Assembly: GCF_004214835.1 (NCBI RefSeq)
Contig: NZ_PIQJ01000002.1
Span: 124,001 to 188,000, forward strand
DNA from: Pseudidiomarina tainanensis
GTDB taxonomy: Bacteria > Pseudomonadota > Gammaproteobacteria > Enterobacterales > Alteromonadaceae
Direction: 5' to 3'
Length of the DNA: 64,000 nucleotides
Part shown: positions 49,975 to 62,759 of the stretch, piece by piece
How the letters are laid out: every line of letters starts with the position of its first letter
Numbering within the stretch: position 1 is the stretch's first letter
Notes under the pieces: model-generated
What the model was told of the DNA's origin: nothing
Database searches by the model: none
What the model saw: the letters and a program-made list of their open reading frames with translations, nothing else
Translations under genes and position numbers: made by a program

Positions 49975-50562
49975 ATGGATTATCCTGATGGAGCAACTCC
50001 ACTTGATCCAGATGAGCTAAATGGACTTAAGTTTAAACACGTCACGACAAGGGGAGAACTCGATCAGCTTGAGCAAGCAAATATCATAGAAGGTTTAAAT
50101 TGGCTGAGTAAACAAAAGTCTCCTGATGTTCTCGCTATCGAGTTTATTCTCCAACTTCATAAAGCGTTATTTGGTCAAATTTGGAGATGGGCGGGGGTAT
50201 TTCGTACTTCCGAAAAAAATATAGGAGTAGACCCAATCACTATTTCTGTAAATCTAAGATTATTAATAGATGACACGGAATATTGGATTGAGCATGAAAC
50301 CTTTGATCCACTTGAAATTGCAGCACGATTTCACCATCGGTTAGTGGCAATACATTTATTCGCTAATGGCAATGGTAGACATGCTCGAATCCTCACAGAT
50401 GCATTATTAAAATACAAATTAAAGCATGCACCAATTGACTGGAGTGGTGGACACTCGTTGACTAAAATGAACGAACGTCGTTCAGAATATATTAAAGCAC
50501 TTCGACTAGCAGATAGAGCCGATTACCAATCACTTTTAACTTTCATGGGAAGCGGTGAATGA
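49975..50562 (+). CDS. Mobile mystery protein B (Fic domain)
   Basis: A 195-residue Fic protein, likely an AMP- or NMP-transferase. The core HLFANGNGR (H127 to R135) keeps the catalytic His and the GNGR loop but has Asn131 where most Fic enzymes have the metal-binding Asp/Glu. The Asn form is also usual in this family, so the loss may be real rather than an error. An inhibitory (S/T)xxxE(G/N) helix is not evident within it, so control may come from protein A. The start of the dioxygenase gene overlaps its stop. Confidence 0.9.
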   Translation: MDYPDGATPLDPDELNGLKFKHVTTRGELDQLEQANIIEGLNWLSKQKSPDVLAIEFILQLHKALFGQIWRWAGVFRTSEKNIGVDPITISVNLRLLIDDTEYWIEHETFDPLEIAARFHHRLVAIHLFANGNGRHARILTDALLKYKLKHAPIDWSGGHSLTKMNERRSEYIKALRLADRADYQSLLTFMGSGE

Positions 50563-56336: not shown

Positions 56337-56645
56337 TTAAATAATTGCTTGAATACCTTTTTTATCAATTACATGCAGAAGTCTTAATGCAGCGCCTTGA
56401 GGTTTCGTTTTACCTTGCTCCCATTTTTGCACGCTCTCGCTACTCATGTTCAATACTACCGCTAGCACAGCTTGACTAATATGCTCTTTCTCTCGTATCA
56501 GTTTAATTTTATCGGGCGTCATTTCGTCTTGTTTTGCACTAATAGCCAACGCATCAATTTTACGCATCGTTAATTTATCAACCGCTCCGCATTCGTGAAA
56601 TCGGTTTGCCATTTCAGCTAAATTTGTTAAACGTTTATCAATCAT
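56337..56645 (-). CDS. HTH antitoxin (HigA/NadS-like)
   Basis: A 102-residue Cro/C1-type HTH protein. The HTH (about 43-90) is DKIKLIREKEHISQAVLAVV to SSESVQKWEQGKTKPQG. The N-terminal helical part precedes the DNA-binding domain as in the HigA-like antitoxins that follow a RelE/HigB-like toxin. It starts eight bases inside the toxin gene, so both are coupled. It probably binds the toxin and represses the shared promoter. Confidence 0.9.
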   Translation of the reverse strand: MIDKRLTNLAEMANRFHECGAVDKLTMRKIDALAISAKQDEMTPDKIKLIREKEHISQAVLAVVLNMSSESVQKWEQGKTKPQGAALRLLHVIDKKGIQAII

Positions 56646-57036
56646 GTTTAACCTCTCTTAATACACCAGCGTCAATTGAGCTCTGAAGCTCTTTTGGAGT
56701 TGCATTTCTTAAACTCGCGCCAAATAATTTATAGACTTCGAGTAACTTATTCGGAATTTCTTTTCCTGATTTCGGGATATCCGACTTACGCCAGCCTTGA
56801 ATAAAAAACATACTCTCTTCACCTTGAACTGCGACAACGCTCCGATTCGAATCTCGTTTGCTTTGTTTGGGGGAGGCAATCCGTTTTTTAAACAATTTCC
56901 CCATATCAAGGTTTCCGTCATGCAACCCTTGAACAACCTCTTCAGCCGATTTAACAACAATTTCGTCGGTAATATTGGCCTTCTTCATAAACATCTGAAA
57001 GTCATCCGTTACATAGATTTTCATTTTGGTTTCCAT
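56638..57036 (-). CDS. RelE/HigB-like toxin
   Basis: A 132-residue protein of the RelE/ParE (HigB-like) superfamily. Recognisable parts are GLHDGNLDMGKLFKKRIASPKQSKRDSNRSVVAVQ and FFIQGWRKSDI, where the basic and aromatic residues correspond to those of mRNA-cutting toxins. It precedes its antitoxin, the reverse order typical of higBA. Either the ATG at 57036 or the next Met (five codons on, MKIYVTDDF) may be the start. It should cleave mRNA on the ribosome. Confidence 0.88.
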   Translation of the reverse strand: METKMKIYVTDDFQMFMKKANITDEIVVKSAEEVVQGLHDGNLDMGKLFKKRIASPKQSKRDSNRSVVAVQGEESMFFIQGWRKSDIPKSGKEIPNKLLEVYKLFGASLRNATPKELQSSIDAGVLREVKHD

Positions 57037-57243: not shown

Positions 57244-58935
57244 ATGAGCAATCGCGTACGAATGGATGATACGATTTACTACTACACCCGCAACGCGGAG
57301 CAGCTAGCTAAGCAATATGACAGCCTTGCTTTTGAGCAAGTGCATGGCGATTGGCTCGATTTAATTCCGACCGAGGGCTTTGTGCTAGATGTCGGCGCAG
57401 GCTCAGGCCGTGATGCCCGCTATTTTGCCGAACGCGGGCTCACCGTGTATGCCGTGGAACCCGCCGATGGCATACGCGAACGCGCACAACAGTATCATCC
57501 GAACCCGTCGATTCATTGGATTAGCGATAGCTTACCCGAACTGACCCACGTTCAGCGGCAAGCGACGAAATTTGACCTCATTTTACTTAGCGCGGTATGG
57601 ATGCATATTGCACCGTCTTCGCGCCAGCGAGCCTTTCGAAAACTCAGTTCATTACTCAAACCGAACGGCAAAATGGTCATCTCGTTACGCCATGGCGAGA
57701 GCCCTGATAGTCGCACCATGCATAGCGTATCAGCAGATGAACTGAAGCAATACGCACAGCAACAAGGCTTAAGTTTCAAGCTACTGAATAACCGAAATGA
57801 TCAGCTCGGCCGCCAAGAGGTGCAGTGGGAAACGGTTTTACTCACATTGCCCGATGACGGTACTGGCGCATTCCCACTCATTCGAAATATCGTCATAAAC
57901 GATAGTAAGTCTTCCACCTACAAAGTCGCCCTGTTACGTTCGCTATTACGCATTGCCGACGGCCACCCAGGAGCGGTTATTGAGCGCTCAAAAACACATG
58001 TGGCATTGCCGATGGGGCTGATTGCTCTGTATTGGTTAAAGCTCTACAAGCCGCTACTTGATACGTTTGCGATGAAGCAAGGTAGCAATGGCAACCTCGG
58101 ATTTGTGAAGGCCACGGGTTGGGAAACGCTGACAAATTACAACGCCAACGATTTTTATATTGGCCGGTGCGTTTTTGACCACCAAGAAGCGCGTAGTTTG
58201 TATCGCACGCTAAAAGACATCGCTACCACCATTAAAAATATGCCGGCAAAATACATCACGTTACCCGGCACGAAAGATGAAGTATTTGATGTCGATTTAG
58301 CTCGAACCAGCCCACCAAAGAACAGCTTGATCATTGATCATGAGTTTTTGAAATCAATGGGCACATTTTATGTACCAATGAATATTTGGAATGTGCTGAC
58401 AGATTTCAGCGTGTGGATTGAACCCGCACTAGTGAACGAGTGGGTTAATCTCATGGCGAATTACAACCGTGAGCACCCGAATGCCTACAGCCAAGCTGAT
58501 TATTTGCAAGCTTTACGCTGGGAAAACCCTGAACGTACAACCACCCGTGTGCGCAATCGAGTTTCAGCATTAGCGCACGTGGATTGTTGTTGGAGTGGCC
58601 GCAAACTAAATAAAACCGCCTATGCCGTTGATCACGCATTTCCATTTGCGCGGTGGCCCAACAACGATTTATGGAATTTATTACCAACGAAAACCACGAT
58701 TAACTCGGCGAAGTCAGATAAATTGCCAACTCGCCAACGCTTTATGCATTCACGGGAATACATTCTTGAGTGGTGGCGACAAGCTTGGCAGGAACATGAA
58801 CGAGAATTTTTTACCCAGGCAAATTTCGCATTACCCGACATGACATTGGGCAATACGAATTTTGATGATGTATTTGAGGCCGTTATGGTGCAACGTGATC
58901 GGATCAAGCAAATTCAGCAGTTGCAGGATTGGTAG
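57244..58935 (+). CDS. Fusion of SAM methyltransferase and HNH endonuclease
   Basis: A 563-residue two-part protein. Residues about 45-150 form a class I methyltransferase with motif I VLDVGAGSGRDARYFAERG and YAVEPADGIRER; there is no NPPY/DPPY motif, so it looks like a small-molecule (Methyltransf_11) type and not a standard DNA methylase. Residues 205-400 include a linker domain common before HNH nucleases (LIRNIVINDSKSSTYKVALL). The C-terminal HNH has DH at 463-464, N478, N487 and K490/D492. Start uncertain: ATG at 57262 (MDDTIYYYTRN) fits relatives best. It lies beside a toxin-antitoxin pair and an SRAP gene. Confidence 0.82.
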   Translation: MSNRVRMDDTIYYYTRNAEQLAKQYDSLAFEQVHGDWLDLIPTEGFVLDVGAGSGRDARYFAERGLTVYAVEPADGIRERAQQYHPNPSIHWISDSLPELTHVQRQATKFDLILLSAVWMHIAPSSRQRAFRKLSSLLKPNGKMVISLRHGESPDSRTMHSVSADELKQYAQQQGLSFKLLNNRNDQLGRQEVQWETVLLTLPDDGTGAFPLIRNIVINDSKSSTYKVALLRSLLRIADGHPGAVIERSKTHVALPMGLIALYWLKLYKPLLDTFAMKQGSNGNLGFVKATGWETLTNYNANDFYIGRCVFDHQEARSLYRTLKDIATTIKNMPAKYITLPGTKDEVFDVDLARTSPPKNSLIIDHEFLKSMGTFYVPMNIWNVLTDFSVWIEPALVNEWVNLMANYNREHPNAYSQADYLQALRWENPERTTTRVRNRVSALAHVDCCWSGRKLNKTAYAVDHAFPFARWPNNDLWNLLPTKTTINSAKSDKLPTRQRFMHSREYILEWWRQAWQEHEREFFTQANFALPDMTLGNTNFDDVFEAVMVQRDRIKQIQQLQDW

Positions 58936-59027: not shown

Positions 59028-59609
59028 CTACGATGTAATCACCAGCGGGATATCTTGCGGGGCTTCAAGTAACGGCGTGAGTACGTCGGCATCGCTGTTG
59101 AGCCAAAAGCCAACTTCACTCGGACGAATGAGCAGCGGCATACGACTGTGATATGGCGCGCATTGTTCCGTCGGCGCGGTGGTGAGCGTGACGAGATGAG
59201 CTTGCTGTTCACGATGCGGGAAATAAATAGCCGCCATGTAGAGCGGTTGTTGATTCGCCTCGGCAAACAGGTATTTGGTTTTGCGTGGCTGCCCTTCCTG
59301 ATGTTGCCATTCATACCAACCACTGCAAGGCACCACGCACCGGTGCTGTTTAAATGCCATTTTAAAGGTCGGCTTGGTGGCCACGGTTTCAGCTTGCGCA
59401 TTAATGATAATGCGGTTCGCCCAATTCGGCTGTATGCCCCACAACGTGTTCAACTGGTGTAGCCCATTGTGATTGGCGGTGGTGGTGACCGTTGCGACTT
59501 GTTGTGTGGGCCGTAAATCCGTGTTGCTCGGCGTATCGAACTTGAAACCGAGTTGCTCGGTGACGAGTTGACAGAGTGGGTCGTTAACAACGTTGAGTCT
59601 TCCGCACAT
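59028..59609 (-). CDS. SRAP (HMCES/YedK) abasic site processing protein
   Basis: A 193-residue SOS-response-associated peptidase domain protein. After removal of Met1 the catalytic Cys2 in MCGRLNVV bonds to abasic sites in single-stranded DNA. CVVPCSGWYEWQHQEG holds the conserved Glu and PYHSRMPLLI the His. It shields stalled replication forks. It is near nuclease and helicase genes and 33 bases downstream of the helicase start region of the same strand (stop at 59643 upstream), so a shared repair or island role is plausible. Confidence 0.95.
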   Translation of the reverse strand: MCGRLNVVNDPLCQLVTEQLGFKFDTPSNTDLRPTQQVATVTTTANHNGLHQLNTLWGIQPNWANRIIINAQAETVATKPTFKMAFKQHRCVVPCSGWYEWQHQEGQPRKTKYLFAEANQQPLYMAAIYFPHREQQAHLVTLTTAPTEQCAPYHSRMPLLIRPSEVGFWLNSDADVLTPLLEAPQDIPLVITS

Positions 59610-59642: not shown

Positions 59643-62600
59643 TTAGCGCGCTACCGAATATTCATGAAAGAGTTGTGCTGTTAACGGATATTTCAGCTTC
59701 CACGTAATGTTCATGGGTTGTGAACCCTCACTTTTTACAAATTCCAGCGGACCACAAGCTCGATACGGTTTATCTCTATTTTCACGAACAAAGAGCTGAA
59801 ATTGCCAACCATTGGTTTTACTTTCCAAATACCGCCTACCTACTTCTGTATGCGAAGCTGCAGTATTTTGTGATTGCCAATGAAACAGCTCTTTATTAAT
59901 AGCATAGTCGTCATATGCGACGCCTTCATGCAGTGCATTTTTCTTATCTAAAGTAACGAATAACACTTCAATTTTCGCTTCGTGACTTCGCCAAACACCA
60001 GCCTTGAAGGGCGAATAGCTCACTTCGGTATATTGGCCCAATGCAGTGAGTATTTCGCGTATCTTATAAGCACTATGAAGCTTTAACCCCGTAGATTCTA
60101 ACTCGGGTAACTCAGAAAATTGTTCGTTGGTAGCAGCATCTAACGCGTCGGCTAATTCAACCAATTCGTTCATCAACGCTGGCGTTTCTGACAAATCACC
60201 AATGAACTCATCAACCGTATGAACACCTCGGCCACCTGTCATTTGATAGGTCAGCATCAATGCACGTTTGCGCGAGAGTTCATCAGAGCCAAGAGAGCCA
60301 AGTCCAATATCTCGCATCACCGCAAGATAATCAGGATCATCGATATGCAAAACGTCTTTAAAACGCCGATTCAAGCGAGTCTCAAGCTCGGATGGAATAC
60401 CATCCAATAACTCAGCATCACGTTTTAGACGAGTCCAGCCAGAGGCGCCATTTTTACGATAAATATCTTCAAACTCGAGGGCCTGTTCACGAACAAATTC
60501 GGCTAACTGGATTTCGTCGACTCCATGCCTCGCGCGATATCCTACAAGTTCAGTTTGTAATCGTTGCCAATTAAGATTCACAGTCTGTTGTAAGCTATTA
60601 AGGATTTGCTCACGAGCTTGGTGTTGCATCTGTAAATAACAGCCCGGTGGTAGATTGCCGAAACCGTTTTTAACACCGTCAACCACTTCTCGGCGCGACA
60701 AACCAGTTATAGAGCTATACAGCACGTCAAAGCGGAAGTTCTGAGCATACTGACCAACGAAATCTAGAATCAAGCAGCTATCTTTATCATCGAATAAACG
60801 CAACCCACGACCGATTTGTTGCTGGAACAGCGTGGCACTTTGGGTGGGGCGCAGAAGTAAAAGGGTATCTACAAAGGGTAAATCGACACCCTCGTTGTAC
60901 AAATCAACTGTCACAATCACGTTGATTTCGCGACGCTCTAACATGCCCGGCAATCGTTGGCGTTCGTTCGCAGGCGTCGCTCCGGTTACGAGTGCTGCTT
61001 GGATGCCTTTATCTTGAAAAAACTGCGTCATAAATTCGGCATGAGCTACAGACACACAAAACGCCAAGGCGCGACAGTCAGAGATTGAGCTTACATGCTC
61101 TTCCCAAGCTCTAAGAACCGCCAGCGCACGTGCATTTTCTCCCGTCAACATATTACTTAACTGAGCAGCTTCATTGGCACTGCGCCAATTTACGTTGCTG
61201 TAATCCATGCCATCCGCACACGCATAATATTCAAACGGCGCCAGCAACTGCTGCTCGAGCGCGTGCCAAAGCCTCATCTGCGCGGATGGCGTGCCGTCAG
61301 GTCTTAGATCAAAATGCTGCAGAATATTGAGGCCATCGCCGCGCTCTGGCGTCGCCGTCAGTCCCAATAGATATTTGGGTTTCACTTGCTCTATCAGCCG
61401 GCGAAACGATGCCGCCTCGATATGATGACATTCATCAACAATCACCATATTCCAATAATCGCTACCGAGCTCTTCTACTAGATTGCGTGAGTTTAGACTT
61501 TGTATGGTGGCAAAAAGGTGGGTATACGATGCGGGTTCATAACCTCCGCTTAAGTAGTCACCAAAATTCCCGCTTCGCATCACATGTCGAAACGTTTGCA
61601 GTGATTGCTGCAATATTTGTTGTCGATGCGCAACGAATAGTAATCGCGGTTGACCACCTTCTTGCTGACAAATGCGTTTGTAATCAAGCGCCGCCATGAC
61701 TGTTTTACCGGTACCGGTTGCGGCAACTAATAAATTTCGGAACCGCCCATGCGCGCGTTCATTCGCTAATTGATCGAGGATAATTTGTTGAAACGGTTTT
61801 GCCTGAATATCAAAGAAAGTCGTGATGACGTTATCGCCATAGTCTTTTGCGCCACGCTCGCGTGACAGTGCTTTGCGAAGCTCTTGCTCATGCGTTTCAT
61901 TGTGCGGATCAAAAGACTGAAACTCTTCATCTTGCCAAAGTGTTTCAAAATGCGCTCGAGCACGCTGATATAAGAAATTTTGTCCTTTTTCAGTGAACTT
62001 GACTGTCCACTCAAGACCACCCATTAGCGCAGCACCTGACAAGTTTGCACTTCCCACGTAAGCAGAACCGAAGCCCGTATAACGTTCGAAAATCCAAGCT
62101 TTTGCATGAAGCCGATTGCGGCGTCCATCCAGCGACACCTTTACTTCACAGTTCGGCAATTCAGCGAGCATTTTAACGGCTTTTAAGTCGGTGGCACCGG
62201 TATAAGTTGTGGTAATAATCCGCAGGCTGGTCCGCGACTGCTTAAGGGCATCCACGGCAGTAATATCACGCAGTAAATTTATAATTTTTCGTACGCCCGA
62301 CATGGTAATGAAGCTCATTAATATGTCGACGTGCTGACAACTGGATAGCTCTGCTTTTAACTCATGGAATAGCGCTGGCGAATCTTTGCCCGACGTAAAA
62401 AGCCAAGGCTGTGCCATACCGACCTGAGGTAAATTTACTGATTCGTTTGGCGCATGCAATGCACGAAGAACTTCTGGCGGACTTTGATAACTTGAAACTG
62501 GCTCTAGGTTTGCAAGCTGCCGTGTATAAACTATTAGGTTGTTTAAAATTTCGATTTGCCGCAACAAACGCTGATCTTGATGGCCGCCATTATTTTGTAG

Positions 62601-62759
62601 TTCTGCGAGAGCATTAGAGACTTCTTCGGTGATGACTTCGGCCAGGTGGCGACTACTTGCGACTAAATCAAGTTTTTCGGTTATTTCAACAAGACCTGAT
62701 TCCTTGATAGCTTGCTCAAGCTCATCGTTCTTTAAAAGCTCGTAAAATCCCTTCTTCAT
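59643..62759 (-). CDS. PLD-DEAD/DEAH helicase-DUF3427 protein
   Basis: A 1038-residue modular protein. An N-terminal helical part is followed by a PLD-like nuclease domain (about 125-280; LHAKAWIF with H218/K220 and YVGSANLSGAAL), a superfamily 2 helicase core (Walker A ATGTGKTV at 347-354, DECH at 442-445, GLTATPERGDG, and motif VI near QQIGRGLRLFD) and a DUF3427 C-terminus (about 780-1038). Such proteins are often next to restriction or other defence genes and may cut DNA while translocating. This role is inferred; the family has no settled function. SRAP lies 33 bases downstream. Confidence 0.9.
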   Translation of the reverse strand: MKKGFYELLKNDELEQAIKESGLVEITEKLDLVASSRHLAEVITEEVSNALAELQNNGGHQDQRLLRQIEILNNLIVYTRQLANLEPVSSYQSPPEVLRALHAPNESVNLPQVGMAQPWLFTSGKDSPALFHELKAELSSCQHVDILMSFITMSGVRKIINLLRDITAVDALKQSRTSLRIITTTYTGATDLKAVKMLAELPNCEVKVSLDGRRNRLHAKAWIFERYTGFGSAYVGSANLSGAALMGGLEWTVKFTEKGQNFLYQRARAHFETLWQDEEFQSFDPHNETHEQELRKALSRERGAKDYGDNVITTFFDIQAKPFQQIILDQLANERAHGRFRNLLVAATGTGKTVMAALDYKRICQQEGGQPRLLFVAHRQQILQQSLQTFRHVMRSGNFGDYLSGGYEPASYTHLFATIQSLNSRNLVEELGSDYWNMVIVDECHHIEAASFRRLIEQVKPKYLLGLTATPERGDGLNILQHFDLRPDGTPSAQMRLWHALEQQLLAPFEYYACADGMDYSNVNWRSANEAAQLSNMLTGENARALAVLRAWEEHVSSISDCRALAFCVSVAHAEFMTQFFQDKGIQAALVTGATPANERQRLPGMLERREINVIVTVDLYNEGVDLPFVDTLLLLRPTQSATLFQQQIGRGLRLFDDKDSCLILDFVGQYAQNFRFDVLYSSITGLSRREVVDGVKNGFGNLPPGCYLQMQHQAREQILNSLQQTVNLNWQRLQTELVGYRARHGVDEIQLAEFVREQALEFEDIYRKNGASGWTRLKRDAELLDGIPSELETRLNRRFKDVLHIDDPDYLAVMRDIGLGSLGSDELSRKRALMLTYQMTGGRGVHTVDEFIGDLSETPALMNELVELADALDAATNEQFSELPELESTGLKLHSAYKIREILTALGQYTEVSYSPFKAGVWRSHEAKIEVLFVTLDKKNALHEGVAYDDYAINKELFHWQSQNTAASHTEVGRRYLESKTNGWQFQLFVRENRDKPYRACGPLEFVKSEGSQPMNITWKLKYPLTAQLFHEYSVAR

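Follow-up and report, generated by a model that had tools for sequence, protein, structure and literature searches.

The gene at positions 57244 to 58935 of the window (the whole 64,000-nucleotide stretch of Pseudidiomarina tainanensis DNA that was analyzed) encodes a methyltransferase, a middle domain, and an HNH nuclease in one polypeptide. We tentatively favor the reading that its product is a single-chain type IV-like enzyme directed against backbone-modified DNA, in which the methyltransferase would act on the modification or on its products; we hold this to be possible rather than probable. The gene would then be the single-chain form of a two-gene defense module. The pairing of methyltransferase with nuclease, from which this reading starts, is itself well supported.

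Domains and conservation of the fused protein

The sequence-only reading had described a methyltransferase-HNH fusion in one chain, and this was borne out by a single open reading frame and by relatives that carry both halves throughout. The start codon may be M7 (position 57262), where several relatives start, and the own genome contains a single match to the whole fused protein. Its parts are as follows.

57244..58935, + strand: whole gene, a fusion of methyltransferase (MTase), putative SBD-like reader, and HNH; 563 amino acids, ATG to TAG, single open reading frame
57244..57855, + strand: class I SAM methyltransferase domain, residues 1 to 204, from Pfam and a model match to solved MTases
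57385..57414, + strand: SAM motif I, LDVGAGSGRD, residues 48 to 57, from its invariance in fused proteins
57859..58527, + strand: SBD-like putative DNA-modification reader, formerly "linker," residues 206 to 428, from VIA-align, K227, and c0-HNH homology
58534..58935, + strand: HNH (beta-beta-alpha metal) nuclease domain, residues 431 to 563, from Pfam and VIA-align
58603..58728, + strand: HNH_4 core, from Pfam
58630..58635, + strand: D463-H464 of the HNH, predicted to be catalytic

The Pfam families Methyltransf_23, Methyltransf_25, Methyltransf_11, and Methyltransf_12 match within residues 41 to 174 (best E value, 4.9e-14), and the best solved-structure match of the MTase model is 3e23 (Z 21.2, RMSD 2.5, 192 residues aligned). 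Since this fold is common to many small-molecule MTases at tied Z scores, it cannot name the substrate. The phosphonate O-methyltransferase DhpI, second best among the fold matches (Z 20.7) and tied with many others, was set aside as a clue. Within motif I, L48, D49, G51, A52, G55, R56, and D57 are invariant in 31 of 31 fused proteins, and in the larger set the last six remain invariant (36 of 36), with L48 present in 35 of 36. TehB and TPMT are weak relatives of the window MTase: the window protein scores 21.5 bits with Pfam TehB, just above the cutoff of 20.4, and does not reach the NCBIfam TehB cutoffs (25.3 against 303, 19.4 against 218, and 12.6 against 219.5 bits). By eye, neither [DNS]PP[YFW] nor PCQ is present in the translation, which, with the Pfam class I assignment, agrees with the earlier description of a small-molecule-type SAM methyltransferase lacking DNA-methylase motifs.

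At the other end of the chain, HNH_4 (PF13395) matches residues 454 to 495 (E value, 1.2e-6; 28.8 bits, above the gathering cutoff of 22). VIA-align places the nuclease domain on Cas9-type HNH with Z scores of up to 6.8, and a PDB sequence search with the C-terminal profile returned, below an E value of 0.1, only Cas9-type HNH domains. The residues D463 and H464, singled out from the sequence at the outset, proved to be invariant in 36 of 36 fused proteins, as are N478, N487, and K490.

The aligned set consists of 36 distinct fused proteins longer than 500 amino acids, the window protein included, and every one of them is matched by the MTase families as well as by HNH_4. The residues invariant throughout include D49, G51, A52, G55, R56, D57, R190, K222, K227, W400, and R437. 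That a sequencing error had joined two separate genes, one of two outcomes that the sequence-only reading named as fatal to its proposal, is ruled out by these 36 proteins, none of which shows a break. The search for the same fusion and its neighbors, which that reading had also called for, found the fusion to be recurrent and the MTase to be paired with nucleases elsewhere. Among named relatives, the nearest belong to Idiomarina loihiensis (83%) and Pseudidiomarina atlantica (76%). Among 59 genomes searched, the own genome included, the fusion was intact in 14, interrupted by an IS21-type element in 1 (L004), and divergent in 2 (G013 and G025); in a class-level sample of 369 genomes, it was found in five beyond the own genome, one of which stops at residue 457. 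Nine of 65 matching plasmid records cover at least 80% of the fused protein, and the plasmid hosts are Pseudoalteromonas, Azospirillum, Sphingobium, Roseomonas, and Sinorhizobium (the last in three pieces). Against six relatives, dN was 0.08 to 0.30 in all three parts of the gene, and dS was above 2 or saturated, so that an exact dN/dS ratio is not computable. One relative (L068) has an MTase part that looks worn by eye and an intact nuclease. Five genomes of genus g30 (L163, L164, L168, L169, and L170) hold the fused gene among largely the same neighbors, and the gene therefore looks stably inherited there; two further loci of this genus (L072 and L084) have flanks common to both. An Rfam scan of L004 and L001 gave no match. 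Current records mostly label these proteins "class I SAM-dependent methyltransferase" or "methyltransferase domain-containing protein." Judged from these sequence comparisons, the fusion is evidently old and conserved.

Separate methyltransferases and exchangeable nucleases

In an order-level sample of 394 genomes, the own genome included, the MTase occurred in 82 genomes at 87 places, 57 times in frames of 514 to 643 amino acids and 30 times in frames of 194 to 265 amino acids. For 21 of the 30 stand-alone MTases, the next same-strand gene within 80 bp encodes a nuclease or a helicase: 11 of these partners are HNH enzymes with a sulfur-binding domain (SBD-HNH), 8 are HNH proteins of a second kind (c0-HNH), and 2 are helicases. 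A script classified 27 of the 30; G955, G026, and the second G962 copy were read individually, and the count of eight c0-HNH partners is made up of seven from the script and G955. The other nine stand-alone MTases have no adjacent same-strand nuclease or helicase. Four of them have no same-strand gene within 200 bp, one of which (G049) is convergent with a helicase; three stand with other genes, namely, a MzaB-like gene (L138), a dnd cluster (L149), and another gene (L155); and the last two are G026 and the second G962 copy. Idiomarina-group MTases without a neighboring nuclease were found at L091 and at L093 to L096.

By its sequence, the SBD-HNH partner is an enzyme of the phosphorothioate (PT) type. 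In L146, residues 1 to 140 match the SBDHga1 structure 8h0l (E value, 1.2e-29), the C-terminal part matches the HNH of 6yex (E value, 2.3e-29), and the NCBIfam model PT-DNA_restrict matches at 4.1e-20 with 72.1 bits, which is under its cutoff of 180; P24, H25, K26, and P76 are kept in 11 of 11 SBD-HNH partners. The c0-HNH partner is homologous to the C-terminal half of the fused protein over 260 columns (hhalign probability, 98.3%; E value, 1.5e-14), and its N-terminal part is homologous to the fused middle domain. Because this half is also found as a separate protein paired with a separate MTase, the window gene is the fused form of a two-gene pair.

The association also holds when it is viewed from the side of the nucleases. 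SBD-HNH genes were found in 18 of the 394 genomes (E value, 1e-40), 11 of them with the MTase family directly upstream. Of the others, one has a different MTase in convergent orientation (L183), one has a HIT protein upstream (L191), three have neither (L180, L189, and L192), and two are C-terminal remnants beside an MTase-HNH pair or a fused gene (L193 and L194). An MTase or HIT gene thus stands beside 13 of 16 full-length SBD-HNH genes, and 3 of 16 are without one. The c0-HNH genes, found in 9 of 325 genomes (E value, 1e-20), have the MTase family directly upstream in seven cases and a second MTase family in one (L201); the last is a fragment. On plasmids, 14 records matched a c0-type HNH and 12 were listed, with incomplete gene tables: seven of the 12 have a methyltransferase gene at most 340 bp upstream (four of these upstream MTases are placed from match coordinates alone), two have a HIT protein, one has an MTase at a distance of about 3.7 kb, and in the remaining two none is annotated or found. 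A plasmid search for the SBD-HNH partner gave no match at 1e-40. Separate HNH_4 proteins of about 390 amino acids also lie behind a small gene in Hymenobacter (L104) and Nostoc (L105), a possible further two-gene arrangement; the small gene in Hymenobacter has a weak HTH_17 match.

Nuclease partners have changed repeatedly. On a tree of 92 different MTase rows, from which exact duplicates had been removed, the label "fused" changes 12 times (at least 5 of them forced by well-supported branches), SBD-HNH changes 5 times, and c0-HNH changes 6 times (at least 4 forced). The clearest instance is a pair of loci, L142 and L143, that occupy the same genomic place in surrounding DNA that is 84 to 89% identical. 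The 88.4% identical stretch that holds the MTase stops within 8 bp of the last MTase codon, and behind it stand unrelated nucleases, SBD-HNH in one and c0-HNH in the other. In G962 (L193), the MTase is followed by a c0-HNH and then by the C-terminal half of an SBD-HNH, and a Polaromonas plasmid (L204) carries a fusion of a PLD-helicase with a second-family MTase. The upstream slot can be filled by this MTase, by a second MTase family, or by a HIT protein, and the nuclease is exchangeable. The repeated partner changes, the 36 conserved fusions, and the pairing of 21 of 30 stand-alone MTases show that the association is not an accident.

Ordinary restriction-modification, in which the MTase would mark host DNA at an unusual base or position, the nuclease would cut unmarked DNA, and the orphan phage copies would serve anti-restriction, is an explanation that we regard as unlikely. 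Adjacent or fused MTase and nuclease genes are what it predicts, as are MTases that stand alone in phages and viral contigs. However, the window MTase has no DNA-methylase motif, and near-identical MTases in front of unrelated nucleases, as in L142 and L143, make a sequence-matched pair less likely, since a matched sequence-specific pair should not tolerate such an exchange. The SBD-HNH partner is, moreover, of a kind described in a section of PMC7461809 as cutting modified rather than unmodified DNA.

The middle domain and backbone-modified DNA

What had been taken for a linker looks instead like a putative DNA-modification reader, an assignment that is suggestive and not secure. AlphaFold was run with 31 of the 36 fused proteins as input (five from plasmid records were left out) and gave good models, with a pLDDT of 85.8 and a pTM of 0.69 for the whole chain and a pLDDT of 85.7 and a pTM of 0.86 for residues 200 to 563. 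With VIA-align, residues 206 to 428 matched the ScoMcrA sulfur-binding domain (SBD) in 5zmo with a Z score of 6.4, in the range below 8 that may reflect a common arrangement (125 residues aligned; RMSD 3.5). Two further ScoMcrA chains matched, and among the 50 matches listed no other family aligns mainly over residues 206 to 428. Foldseek alone returned nothing at an E value of 0.001 or below. Comparison by hhalign of the fused-family profile with SBD-HNH proteins gave a probability of 0.2%, N-terminal profiles likewise gave no relation, and the window protein is unmatched by the NCBIfam model PT-DNA_restrict. A short "S-Y/F-K..LL" resemblance of the fused reader to some of the helicase partners (13 columns; P = 0.0056) was too weak to be used.

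In the binding-site description of PMC6224610, the sulfur in ScoMcrA sits between H116, R117 (K in most homologs), Y164, P165, and A168, and the corresponding passage of PMC7470945 has the SprMcrA pocket formed by helices 2 and 4. Helix 2 of the modeled fused reader starts at residues 225 to 227 and there carries Y226-K227; K227 is present in 36 of 36 fused proteins, and residue 226 is Y in 29 and H in 7. The correspondence of pocket residues between the fused family and SBDs is drawn here from secondary structure and not from a printed structural alignment. On that basis, the place equivalent to the SBD pocket proline lies before the invariant F287, just ahead of the fourth helix, and is never proline in the fused family (G in 30, A in 3, S in 2, and K in 1 of 36). 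The canonical SBD pocket (HK/HR plus P) thereby appears to be absent from the fused reader, and a larger pocket would be possible. Because neither the sequence profile nor the pocket was found in it, we do not class the fused protein as a PT-dependent SBD-HNH enzyme; we rate it, from its sequence, as a putative type IV-like restriction enzyme outside the SBD-HNH family.

The comparison with known systems is nonetheless closest for the PT-dependent SBD-HNH enzymes of type IV, such as SprMcrA and EcoWI, which like the fused protein have a reader domain followed by an HNH (ScoMcrA has an extra SRA domain). The lack of DndC over the cutoff in the 51 chosen MTase-bearing genomes is a further likeness, the predicted SBD-like fold of the fused reader, though not secure, may be another, and the same MTase family has true SBD-HNH enzymes among its partners. 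In contrast, the window protein has an MTase fused in front, its reader cannot be recognized as an SBD from the sequence and is without the pocket proline, and its HNH is of the HNH_4 kind, whereas that of the SBD-HNH partner is of the HNH_2 kind. The SauUSI-like PLD-helicase-DUF3427 enzymes are neighbors of the fused gene in the window and in relatives and are partners directly behind the stand-alone L098 and L101 MTases, and the L204 fusion includes a PLD-helicase, but neither a helicase nor a PLD domain is present in the window protein. Type IIG/IIC enzymes likewise combine MTase and nuclease in one polypeptide, but the window MTase is small-molecule type, with no N6A, N4C, or C5 motif. A putative MTase that is linked to DNA phosphorothioation, dnd_rel_methyl (TIGR04096), lies in the same cluster as the stand-alone MTase of L149, but it is another protein family, and the window protein is unmatched by it at an E value of 0.1. 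By title or abstract, no description of an MTase combined with SBD/HNH was found in the open-license literature. The word "methyltransferase" is absent from the main texts of PMC7461809, PMC6224610, and PMC7470945, and "MTase" occurs twice in that of PMC7461809, at least once on base methylases.

Several genomic associations lead us to infer sulfur chemistry for the MTase. In L149 (G676:C1:131500-145500), a stand-alone MTase heads a dnd cluster with matches to TIGR04096, "DNA phosphorothioation-associated putative methyltransferase" (651 bits), DndB (459), DndC (517), and DndD (250; truncated where the stretch ends). A 203-amino-acid gene between the MTase and TIGR04096 is unmatched in Pfam (E value, 0.01) and NCBIfam (E value, 0.001). 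The HNH gene at this locus is split between two overlapping frames. A split PT-reading nuclease is as expected in a PT-making cell, although the case is a single one and could stem from faulty assembly. Conversely, DndC was over the cutoff in 0 of 51 chosen MTase-bearing genomes (G693 gave a weaker match of 106 bits, and G676, with its dnd genes, is outside the 51), and the own genome had no TIGR03183 match in this search. Such an absence fits, weakly, what is expected of an enzyme that attacks PT-DNA; none of 14 control genomes was over the cutoff either, which left the search with no internal positive control, and DndC could simply be rare, so that the support is weak. The neighbor analysis in PMC7461809 gives fewer than 3.6% of SBD-HNH genes as associated with dnd genes.

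A HIT-family protein (PF01230) takes the MTase slot directly upstream of an SBD-HNH or c0-type HNH gene at L191, L208, and L209. A portion of PMC8775712 describes HINT1, of the HIT family, as desulfurating nucleoside 5'-thiophosphates to NMP and H2S, and thiophosphates as hardly toxic to HeLa cells, a low toxicity that weakens a pure detoxification role. The MTase is also present in phages, without a neighboring nuclease in L216, L219, and L222, and alone in viral contigs. The phage copies, at L216, L219, and L222 and in phi458 (L025:2282-4775) and its kin, are convergent with a PAPS-reductase-family gene (E values of 6.8e-21 and 2.9e-20 in the two scanned).

The mechanism that we propose on this basis has three steps. 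The C-terminal HNH nuclease would cut DNA, as its homology suggests. The SBD-like middle domain would position it on backbone-modified DNA, most likely phosphorothioate or a chemically similar mark, and incoming modified DNA would be restricted as by type IV enzymes. Least certainly, the MTase would act on the same chemistry, for example, by sulfur methylation of phosphorothioate DNA or of thiophosphate nucleotides released on its destruction. Sulfur is already a good nucleophile, and an MTase acting on it would for that reason need no DNA-methylase motif. The specific proposal that the MTase S-methylates phosphorothioate DNA or the thiophosphate nucleotides derived from it, which would make it the first such enzyme in the open-license literature searched, is one that we consider doubtful. 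If it is true, the mark would be destabilized or erased by S-methylation, or its products would be cleared, and the family (MTase or HIT protein with SBD-like HNH or helicase, joined in one chain in the window) would be a two-pronged defense of reading and cutting plus chemical removal of sulfur.

The writers (Dnd and Ssp) and readers (SBD) of DNA phosphorothioation have been described, and no enzyme acting chemically on the PT mark or its breakdown products was found in the open-license literature. An MTase that acts in this way would add an "eraser" or "waste-clearing" function and would explain the MTase or HIT gene beside most full-length SBD-HNH genes of the order sample. Even without sulfur chemistry, an MTase-nuclease module that recurs with exchangeable parts and is fused in many species makes a testable defense family.

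The sequence-only reading had suggested instead that methylation of a small molecule switches the nuclease. In its wider form, the MTase would make or modify a small signal or would methylate the nuclease, and would serve the HNH effector as its sensor, antitoxin, or switch. The small-molecule fold of the MTase accords with this, one enzyme with exchangeable effectors resembles signaling defenses, and in L216, L219, L222, and phi458 a conserved protein of 205 to 212 amino acids that looks membrane spanning by eye precedes the MTase. However, the partners of the MTase are true SBD enzymes, homologs of the fused half, and type IV-like helicases, and neither Pfam nor structure comparison revealed a ligand-sensor domain in the fused chain. 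The MTase travels with varied nucleases, genuine SBD-HNH among them, and in one case stands at the head of a dnd cluster. This speaks for backbone-modified DNA and less for such a switch, which we find improbable. It is more improbable still that the MTase is a thiol or chalcogen detoxification enzyme of defense islands (TehB/TPMT-like) fused by accident, as its weak relatives TehB and TPMT and the copies standing in places with no nuclease beside them (L038, L095, and L096) might suggest, given the 36 fusions with both halves conserved, the repeated partner changes, and the 21 of 30 pairings.

Genomic neighborhood

A defense role for the MTase-nuclease module, already thought plausible from the sequence, is well supported by the partner nucleases, by a mad2-like profile, and by a SauUSI-like neighbor. 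Nearby genes in the window are as follows.

56337..57036, - strand: RelE-family toxin (PF06296; E value, 1.5e-21) with an HTH antitoxin-like gene, shortly upstream of the fusion
59028..59609, - strand: SOS response-associated peptidase (SRAP), convergent neighbor (PF02586; E value, 1.4e-37)
59643..62759, - strand: PLD nuclease-helicase-DUF3427 protein, SauUSI-like, type IV (PADLOC mREase_IV, 651 bits; Pfam)

Over 54 locus entries, some of them short and two of them (L002 and L093) the same place, 7 distinct loci, the window included, have a SauUSI-like gene at most 1.5 kb from the fused gene, and 8 have one within about 5 kb. This suggests a shared island; most fused genes have no SauUSI-like gene in the stretch seen, and the idea that the two form one system was rejected for that reason.

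The MTase domain of the window protein matches the PADLOC mad2 profile of MADS with 63 bits, and three stand-alone copies match it with 44 to 67 bits. However, the match is partial, covering only profile positions 292 to 426 of 492, and no other mad model was among the matches listed for the seven window proteins scanned, the list for the helicase covering 25 of 27 families. In L138 (G935:C136), MzaB/MzaC-like genes follow the MTase directly (361 and 570 bits, each short of its NCBIfam cutoff), and the MTase may form part of a variant MZA anti-phage system.

A gene for a Fic/DOC family protein (PF02661) lies at 49975 to 50562 on the + strand of the window. SRAP genes recur near related MTase/HNH loci, at L215:2481-3176, L219:2499-3257, and L208:5129-5761 (the last as annotated), and thus in a viral contig, on a plasmid, and in the window.
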